From Kocuria rosea (GTDB lineage: Bacteria > Actinomycetota > Actinomycetes > Actinomycetales > Micrococcaceae), in assembly GCF_006094695.1 (NCBI RefSeq), contig NZ_CP035103.1:2480001-2544000 (forward strand): a stretch of 64,000 nucleotides of DNA. The letters are read 5' to 3'. Shown here in pieces: positions 22,235 to 25,112 of the stretch; position 1 is the first letter of the stretch; every line of letters starts with the position of its first letter. The position numbers and the translations under genes were made by a program. Below the pieces are notes generated by a model. The model had not been told where the DNA came from. It made no database searches and saw only the letters and a list, made by a program, of their open reading frames with translations.

Positions 22235-22433
22235 GAAAGGAGGTGATCCAGCCGCACCTTCCGGTACGGCTACCTTGTTACGACTTAGTCCCAATCGCCA
22301 GTCCCACCTTCGACGGCTCCCTCCCACAAGGGGTTAGGCCACCGGCTTCGGGTGTTACCAACTTTCGTGACTTGACGGGCGGTGTGTACAAGGCCCGGGA
22401 ACGTATTCACCGCAGCGTTGCTGATCTGCGATT

Positions 22434-22439
22434 ACTAGC
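22434..22439. repeat. target-site duplication, left copy (ACTAGC)
   Basis: The 6 bases before the element equal the 6 bases after it (23557-23562). ACTAGC fits the NCTAGN target known for IS481. Confidence 0.93.
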
Positions 22440-23556
22440 TGTTGTGGGTCATGAGGTTCTTGGCGTGGGTGCGTCGATGAGATGAGGAACGGGCTCCTCG
22501 TCACAGGATGGAAGTTCCTACACCGTCCGTCCGCGCGAGAGAGCCCGTTCATGACCCACGTTAACGCACCCCTGACCCCGACCGGCCGGCTGCGCATGGT
22601 GTTGCGCCACCTCGACGACGGCATCCCCAAGGCCCACGTGGCCGCGGAGTTCCGCGTCAGCCGGCCCACCGTGGCGACCTGGGTGGCCCGCTACCTCGAG
22701 TCCGGCGAAGCCGGGCTCACCGACCGTCCCTCGACCCCGCGGCACAGCAGCACCCGCACCCCGGCGGCGGTCGTGGACCTCATCGAGCGCTGGCGCCGCA
22801 AGCACAAGTGGTCAGCGCGGCGCATCCACCGCCACCTGGTCGACCGCGCCGTGGCGATCAGCCTGCGCACCGTCGGCCGCTGGCTGCACCGGCTCGGGAT
22901 CTCCCGCCTGCGCGACCTCACCCCCGCCGGCGAGAACACCCGCAGGACCCCGGGACGGATCCGCGCCGCCTGGCCCGGGCACATGGTCCACCTGGATGTG
23001 AAGAAGGTGGGCAGGATCCCCGACGGCGGCGGCTGGCGGGCCCACGGCCGCGGCTCCACCGCCGCGAAGGCGGCCAAGCGCGGGGCCGGGGCCAAGGTCG
23101 GCTACACCTACCTGCACTCGGCCGTGGACGGCTTCTCGCGGTTGGCCTACACCGAGGCCCTCGAGGACGAGAAGGCGGTGACCACCATCGGGTTCTTCTG
23201 CCGGGCGAGAGCCTTCTTCGCCGCCCACGGCATCACCCGATTGAACCGCGTCGTGACCGACAACGGCGCCAACTACCGGGCCAAGGACTTCACCCGCTGC
23301 GTGGAAGCCCTGGCCGGCCGCCACCAGCGCATCCGCCCCTACACGCCGCGGCACAACGGGAAGGTGGAGCGGTACAACCGCCTGCTGGCCGACGAGGTGC
23401 TCTACGCCCGCCCCTACGCCAGCGAGCAGGCCCGCCGGTACGCCATCGGGGTCTGGGTGAACCACTTCAACTACCATCGGCCCCATACCGCCTGCGGCGA
23501 TCAGCCCCCGGCCTCACGCACCCCGGCCCGTGCCAATAACGTCATGCCCTCTTACA
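22440..23556 (+). mobile_element. IS481-family insertion sequence, 1,117 bp, inside the 16S rRNA gene
   Basis: The element begins TGTTGTGGGTCATGAGG and ends CATGCCCTCTTACA; the ends form an imperfect inverted repeat with 18 of the first 25 positions matching and the TGT...ACA termini of the IS481 family. It is flanked by ACTAGC on both sides. One transposase gene fills it, on the strand opposite to rRNA transcription. The open frame and both ends look complete, so it is probably still mobile. Its GC content is like that of the host genes, which points to a source in a related actinobacterium. Confidence 0.95.
22487..22550 (+). promoter_or_regulatory. inverted repeat ending directly before the transposase start
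   Basis: GAACGGGCTC (22487-22496) and GAGCCCGTTC (22541-22550) are exact reverse complements. The right arm ends at the base before the start ATG and covers the place of the ribosome-binding site, so an RNA that includes both arms could hide the start. Confidence 0.6.
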
Positions 23557-23561
23557 ACTAG
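22551..23561 (+). CDS. IS481-family transposase
   Basis: DDE transposase of the rve integrase type that moves the host element. I use ATG 22551, where the conserved family beginning MTHVNAPLTPTGRLR is found, rather than the in-frame ATG at 22482; the product has 336 residues. A helix-turn-helix (GIPKAHVAAEFRVSRPTVATW, split over about residues 24-45) precedes a second DNA-binding region and the catalytic core with D (HLDVKKVG), D (RVVTDNGANY) and E (NGKVERYNRLL). The last codons read past the end of the element: AAC uses one element base and two target bases, and the TAG stop lies entirely in the duplicated target. No frameshift is present. Confidence 0.95.
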   Translation: MTHVNAPLTPTGRLRMVLRHLDDGIPKAHVAAEFRVSRPTVATWVARYLESGEAGLTDRPSTPRHSSTRTPAAVVDLIERWRRKHKWSARRIHRHLVDRAVAISLRTVGRWLHRLGISRLRDLTPAGENTRRTPGRIRAAWPGHMVHLDVKKVGRIPDGGGWRAHGRGSTAAKAAKRGAGAKVGYTYLHSAVDGFSRLAYTEALEDEKAVTTIGFFCRARAFFAAHGITRLNRVVTDNGANYRAKDFTRCVEALAGRHQRIRPYTPRHNGKVERYNRLLADEVLYARPYASEQARRYAIGVWVNHFNYHRPHTACGDQPPASRTPARANNVMPSYN

Positions 23562-23562
23562 C
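23557..23562. repeat. target-site duplication, right copy (ACTAGC)
   Basis: Second copy of the 6-bp target. It also contains the TAG stop codon of the transposase (23559-23561). Confidence 0.93.
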
Positions 23563-25112
23563 GACTCCGACTTCATGAGGTCGAGTTGCAGACCTCAATC
23601 CGAACTGAGACCGGCTTTTTGGGATTAGCTCCACCTCACAGTATCGCAACCCTTTGTACCGGCCATTGTAGCATGCGTGAAGCCCAAGACATAAGGGGCA
23701 TGATGATTTGACGTCATCCCCACCTTCCTCCGAGTTGACCCCGGCAGTCTCCTATGAGTCCCCACCATCACGTGCTGGCAACATAGAACGAGGGTTGCGC
23801 TCGTTGCGGGACTTAACCCAACATCTCACGACACGAGCTGACGACAACCATGCACCACCTGTCCACCAGCCCCGAAGGGAAACCCCATCTCTGGGGCGGT
23901 CCGGTGAATGTCAAGCCTTGGTAAGGTTCTTCGCGTTGCATCGAATTAATCCGCATGCTCCGCCGCTTGTGCGGGCCCCCGTCAATTCCTTTGAGTTTTA
24001 GCCTTGCGGCCGTACTCCCCAGGCGGGGCACTTAATGCGTTAGCTACGGCGCGGAAAACGTGGAATGTCCCCCACACCTAGTGCCCAACGTTTACGGCAT
24101 GGACTACCAGGGTATCTAATCCTGTTCGCTCCCCATGCTTTCGCTCCTCAGCGTCAGTAACAGCCCAGAGACCTGCCTTCGCCATCGGTGTTCCTCCTGA
24201 TATCTGCGCATTTCACCGCTACACCAGGAATTCCAGTCTCCCCTACTGCACTCTAGTCTGCCCGTACCCACTGCAGACCCGGGGTTGAGCCCCGGGCTTT
24301 CACAGCAGACGCGACAAACCGCCTACGAGCTCTTTACGCCCAATAATTCCGGACAACGCTTGCGCCCTACGTATTACCGCGGCTGCTGGCACGTAGTTAG
24401 CCGGCGCTTCTTCTGCAGGTACCGTCACTCTCGCTTCTTCCCTACTGAAAGAGGTTTACAACCCGAAGGCCGTCATCCCTCACGCGGCGTCGCTGCATCA
24501 GGCTTCCGCCCATTGTGCAATATTCCCCACTGCTGCCTCCCGTAGGAGTCTGGGCCGTGTCTCAGTCCCAGTGTGGCCGGTCACCCTCTCAGGCCGGCTA
24601 CCCGTCGTCGCCTTGGTGAGCCATTACCCCACCAACAAGCTGATAGGCCGTGAGCCCATCCAAAACCAGTAAAACCCTTTCCACCACCCACCATGCGGTA
24701 AGAGGTAGTATCCAGTATTAGACCCAGTTTCCCAGGCTTATCCCAGAGTCAAGGGCAGGTTACTCACGTATTACTCACCCGTTCGCCACTAATCCGCCCA
24801 GCAAGCTGGGCATCATCGTTCGACTTGCATGTGTTAAGCACGCCGCCAGCGTTCGTCCTGAGCCAGGATCAAACTCTCCGTCAAAAAAACAACGAAAACA
24901 TCAAACCCCGGCTGAAAATGTCGCCACCACCCCACGGAGGCAGGACGGCGACAACCAATCAACCGAATAAAACATCCGGTATCAACAAACATGGCACACT
25001 ATTGAGTTCTCAAACAACAGACCAGCAACCAGGCACCACACCCGGAAACCGTGTTGGAATTTTCGGTGCCCTCCGCGTCGGAACTTCGTTCCCCGCCTCA
25101 GGCAGCTCGACC

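Follow-up and report, generated by a model that had tools for sequence, protein, structure and literature searches.

One of the three 16S rRNA genes of Kocuria rosea is split by a complete insertion sequence (IS) of the IS481 family. We consider it very probable that this element, which targets NCTAGN, recently transposed into the GCTAGT segment of the gene. The gene is an unusual place for an insertion, and the mechanism is an ordinary one: a known kind of element at a known target.

A 16S rRNA gene interrupted in its conserved core

The window analyzed here comprises 64,000 nucleotides (contig NZ_CP035103.1, positions 2,480,001 to 2,544,000), and coordinates refer to it unless given as genome positions. 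It contains one rRNA operon, which runs in the order 16S, 23S, 5S on the minus strand.

18197..18313, minus strand: 5S rRNA gene of the same operon (Rfam)
18508..21636, minus strand: 23S rRNA gene of the same operon, full length (Rfam)
22235..22439, minus strand: 3' part of the 16S gene, from E. coli position 1343 to the anti-Shine-Dalgarno end (Rfam and comparison with the intact copies)
23557..24884, minus strand: 5' part of the 16S gene, to E. coli position 1348 (Rfam and comparison with the intact copies)
25113..25142, minus strand: promoter-like site upstream of the 16S gene, TTGACA, 18 nucleotides, TAGGAT (consensus match only)

Two separate minus-strand segments, 23493-24884 and 22249-22520, match the Rfam model SSU_rRNA_bacteria, and the target, GCTAGT or ACTAGC depending on the strand, is present in both 16S parts. 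An earlier sequence-only reading of this DNA had described a complete IS481-family element splitting a 16S gene, which is confirmed by the two-piece Rfam match, the match of the transposase to the IS481 model, and a perfect target duplication. The length of 1,117 bp given for the element also holds, since the target duplication fixes its ends at 22440-23556. Together with the duplicated 6-bp target, the element lengthens the 16S gene by 1,123 bp.

When the insert and one target copy are removed, the flanks join into a single gene of 1,522 bp that is letter for letter (100%) identical to both other 16S genes, which bears out the claim that the gene is otherwise full length. On the 3' side of the insertion, 1,704 comparable bases (the 16S end, the spacer, and the start of the 23S gene) show no mismatch to the intact copies, and on the 5' side there is none in the 1,467 and 1,505 bases comparable with the two copies. 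The assembly consists of one contig (3,946,651 bases), and the genome-wide count of three 16S genes, the interrupted one and two intact ones, agrees with the expectation that the strain has other rRNA copies.

The insertion had been placed in the conserved GCTAGT segment of the 16S core, at E. coli positions 1342 to 1347. The segment stands and the numbering is off by one: with G1401 of an annotated E. coli gene as the landmark, GCTAGT occupies positions 1343 to 1348. The insertion point lies in helix 29, close to G1338 and A1339 of the P site, and not at a loop tip. The promoter-like site is the one such match in positions 22000 to 25400, where shuffled sequences gave a mean of 0.6 (standard deviation, 0.8). 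Eleven relatives were searched for the orthologous, tyrS-linked operon, and the region was fetched for four; the 16S gene is uninterrupted in all three readable ones (G006, G010, and G013), and the fourth (G018) is unreadable because its contig ends there.

The IS481-family element

The inserted element lies in the opposite orientation to the 16S gene.

22434..22439, no strand: left copy of the target duplication, ACTAGC (GCTAGT on the 16S strand; flank comparison)
22440..23556, plus strand: complete IS481-family element, 1,117 bp, 71% GC, with TGT...ACA ends (four identical genome copies; target duplication)
22440..22464, plus strand: left terminal inverted repeat, about 25 bp, imperfect (end alignment; extent by eye)
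22482..23561, plus strand: transposase open reading frame, 359 amino acids from the first ATG (opposite strand to the 16S gene)
23532..23556, minus strand: right terminal inverted repeat, about 25 bp, imperfect (end alignment; extent by eye)
23557..23562, no strand: right copy of the target duplication, ACTAGC, whose TAG (23559-23561) is the transposase stop codon (flank comparison)

Terminal inverted repeats with TGT...ACA ends are a feature of the IS481 family, and they are found here: the element begins TGTTGTGGG and finishes CTTACA. Starts with TGT are also printed for ISLxc2 (PMC2516522) and ISRe46 (PMC6794481). The transposase scores 300.5 bits against NF033577 (transpos_IS481; cut-off, 224) and contains the rve-type domains PF13683 and PF00665 above their cut-offs. 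Its acidic DDE triad, assigned by motif and not by structure, is D172, D260, and E296, with 35 residues separating D260 from E296. Many relatives of the protein have 336 amino acids, which would fit a start at the ATG at 22551. Inside the element the reading frame has no stop codon, and in all four copies in this genome the TAG is supplied by the duplicated target. The search for terminators in or near the element gave one weak plus-strand match, fewer than in shuffled sequences.

The four copies in the genome show no mismatch among them. In the orientation of the element, their target duplications are ACTAGC, GCTAGC, CCTAGG, and TCTAGG, all perfect 6-bp NCTAGN repeats (4/4); because each of four identical copies has such a duplication, chance is not an issue. 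The identical copies at four sites suggest that the element has been active recently. Single element ends are also matched by 56 and 38 bp at genome positions 499651-499706 (L005) and 2735191-2735228 (L006), perhaps relics of older related insertions.

Matches to the element occur in at least 25 of the 27 genomes of the genus, this one included. Among the matches listed, 29 distinct full-length copies were retrieved and could be delimited at both ends, the four described here included; two more long partial matches were left out. The 6-bp flanks are identical in 21 of these copies (NCTAGN in 19, NTTAGN in two) and unequal in the other eight. Ends were chosen as the best-matching TGT and ACA within 4 bases, a procedure that slightly favors matching flanks. 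The NCTAGN target rule is thus strong but not absolute. In the draft genome of one relative (G011), the starts of several contigs fall inside the first 55 to 62 bases of an IS end that is closely related to this one (about 98% identical), and a multicopy relative of the element seems to fragment that assembly.

Why this site was hit

The sequence-only reading had recognized the conservation of the site and missed the cause of the insertion there: the conserved GCTAGT is itself an NCTAGN target. Without the insert, the rRNA operon contains 8 CTAG in 5,565 bp, compared with 41 in 187,312 bp of non-rRNA sequence sampled from the window outside the operon (9 in 57,312 bp) and from thirteen 10-kb stretches (32), a ratio of 6.6. 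The surroundings of the other IS sites in this genome hold 18 CTAG in 18,120 bp, six of these being target copies; having been selected by its IS sites, this sample was kept out of the background, and with it the ratio would fall to about 5. The location of the insertion in the 16S gene is therefore explained by the fact that GCTAGT is an NCTAGN site and that CTAG is about 6.6 times denser in the operon than elsewhere. On the assumption that all three operons share this CTAG content, about 2.7% of the CTAG sites belong to them, and with four random insertions the chance of one or more landing there is about 10%. Landing in an rRNA operon is lucky, not remarkable, and some luck remains despite the excess of CTAG.

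The following course of events is very probable. A self-mobile IS481-family element would have moved recently into the GCTAGT segment, with the six target bases duplicated on insertion and the TAG stop codon of the transposase taken from the target. The target rule would have set the site, with no affinity of the element for ribosomal genes; CTAG is uncommon in this high-GC genome and more frequent within the rRNA operon, where the sequence is under constraint. The two intact 16S copies would then carry the load. That the transposition was recent is suggested by the identity of the 16S copies outside the insert, which would mean either a recent hit or gene conversion that keeps the copies identical.

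GCTAGT was found in the three Kocuria relatives examined and in E. coli, and other NCTAGN elements could strike 16S genes in other bacteria. The conserved 16S stretch is a ready target for IS481 elements that seek NCTAGN, and a hit there can persist where other 16S copies exist. IS481 transposases have been termed abundant in most Actinobacteria (PMC2516522).

Relation to known systems

A close parallel to the mode of insertion is ISRe46/TnRErm46, an IS481-family system of Rhodococcus equi, for which NCTAGN repeats and a transposase stop codon formed by the target TAG are likewise described (PMC6794481). The terminal repeats are very similar, the printed sequence being TGTTGCGGGTCATGACGTTG and that of the present element TGTTGTGGGTCATGAGGTTC (PMC6794481). 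Unlike ISRe46/TnRErm46, the element described here is a cargo-free IS of 1,117 bp that has a 16S gene as its location. ISLxc2 of Leifsonia xyli, also of the IS481 family, resembles it in size (1,105 bp) and in its NCTAGN target, and the stop codons of ISLxc2 and ISLxx4 are situated in the insertion site, as here (PMC2516522); the word rRNA is absent from the main text of that report (0 matches). Within the genus, the transposase of the IS481-like ISKrh2 of Kocuria rhizophila is a full-length homologue with only 80% protein identity; closer relatives (93 to 94%) include proteins of Kocuria rosea and K. rhizosphaericola.

Foreign sequence inside 16S or 23S genes is also described for bacteria of the CPR, in the form of rRNA introns and intervening sequences. 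Many of these look like group I or group II introns, often with homing endonucleases, and the word transposase is absent from the text seen of that report (PMC11270868). The 46-bp insertion in the 16S gene of Ochrobactrum intermedium (PMC3894950) is a different thing from an IS insertion.

Function of the interrupted copy and survival of the cell

The interrupted copy plausibly makes no working 16S rRNA, given the position of the break in helix 29, close to the P site. The cell would be expected to survive this loss, since laboratory transposon insertions in rRNA genes have already been published as tolerated. In Pseudomonas putida, insertions in one rRNA operon were viable with no apparent fitness defect (PMC6505042); in Lysobacter enzymogenes, which has two operons, an rRNA insertion was viable and lowered spectinomycin resistance (PMC9471086). 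Both cases resemble the present one in that a transposon sits in the rRNA gene of one operon of a viable bacterium. They differ in that the laboratory insertions were made and selected, whereas here a native IS lies at its own target motif in a public genome.

The same flexibility of operon dosage raises the question of whether the insertion is adaptive, the loss of one rRNA operon having been selected, for example, for slow growth. The lack of an apparent fitness defect in the P. putida insertions (PMC6505042) speaks for such flexibility, and selection would be compatible with the arrival of the element by transposition. However, the insertion is a singleton among the genomes searched, the gene shows no decay, and a recent hit that was neutral or mildly harmful would look the same. 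We regard an adaptive origin as very improbable.

Another reading, also compatible with arrival by transposition, concerns the transcript. Pairing of the IS ends, together with the palindromic target copies, could create a stem for cleavage. The RNA of the insert would then be removed from the precursor, and the 16S rRNA, in two pieces that part in helix 29, would still work; the transposon would act as an intervening sequence, and the operon would still contribute ribosomes. For the rRNA strand, base pairing is predicted between the two element ends with their palindromic CTAG copies, at an interaction energy of -28.1 kcal/mol, a strength reached by none of 300 random 70-mers from the window. 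In a predicted fold of 1,160 nucleotides, 25 of the 42 end positions find their partner in the opposite end. Cutting of 23S intervening sequences by RNase III is described in PMC11270868. However, such pairing is expected of any IS with inverted repeats, and no relative carrying the insert was found in the junction scans. Moreover, the break falls in helix 29 beside the P-site bases and not at a loop tip. A functional two-piece 16S rRNA would therefore be extremely unlikely.

An assembly artefact, in which the element was wrongly joined to a 16S repeat, deserves consideration because the 16S genes (three) and the IS copies (four) are both repeats, the usual source of misjoins. However, a wrong join should not yield an NCTAGN duplication of 6 bp that is perfect and sits exactly at the ends of the element, nor should it leave both flanks 100% identical to the intact copies. 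The sequence-only reading had itself named a misjoined contig as the outcome that would count against it; given the element-specific target and the perfect duplication, we find that explanation hardly credible. A bacterial rRNA intron can be dismissed: the Rfam scan of the window at gathering scores gave rRNA families only and no group I or group II intron, and the insert is a DDE transposon. The preferred reading remains the transposition of an NCTAGN-targeting element.

Rarity of the insertion

A strict scan for the junction in genome_contigs, a set of 84,980 species genomes from which this genome or near ones may have been left out, gave 0 stretches. A loose scan of the same genomes, which asked for nonnative bases before GCTAGT, gave three. 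Two of them (L059 and L061) have no Rfam match and were taken as chance. The third (L060), from an uncultured Clostridiales bin, is a metagenome-bin 16S sequence with a repeated stretch, not an IS; the repeat, at about positions 1000 to 1120, surrounds the same GCTAGT and is probably an assembly error of the bin or a chimera.

Within the family of the host, the junction was found in 1 of 395 genomes (a sample of a larger family), the match being this genome itself. Junctions at three other CTAG sites of the rRNA operon were each found in 0 of 99 genomes, this one included; these are weak tests, since the patterns use the letters of this genome, which the relatives may not share. For one of the three, a reversed control pattern matched once. 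Among plasmid records, none covers 80% of a 301-base stretch across the left junction, and thus no junction like it turned up in them. All recurrence counts are lower bounds, because drafts often collapse or break rRNA operons and the scans need exact words. The statement that transposons are rarely seen in rRNA genes agrees with these scans, with its force weakened by the collapse of rRNA genes in drafts. We recognized no report of an IS481 insertion in a 16S gene among the literature matches listed, in which subscription journals are mostly not covered.

Consequences for 16S surveys and a neighboring gene

Primers on both sides of the site had been predicted to give a longer product, and computed amplicons agree. 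With the standard primer sequences, the 27F-1492R product grows from 1,490 to 2,613 bp (by 1,123 bp) and the 926F-1392R product from 501 to 1,624 bp when the interrupted copy is the template; the 515F-806R product is 292 bp either way. Amplicons that flank the site are thus 1.1 kb longer from one of the three copies and could undercount it, while short V4 amplicons are unaffected. The split gene can also mislead automatic 16S annotation.

Beside tyrS and the rRNA operon lies a gene for a HelD/HelR-like RNA polymerase recycling ATPase (window positions 26723-28981, minus strand), which scores below the curated HelR cut-off (596.3 versus 1100 bits).
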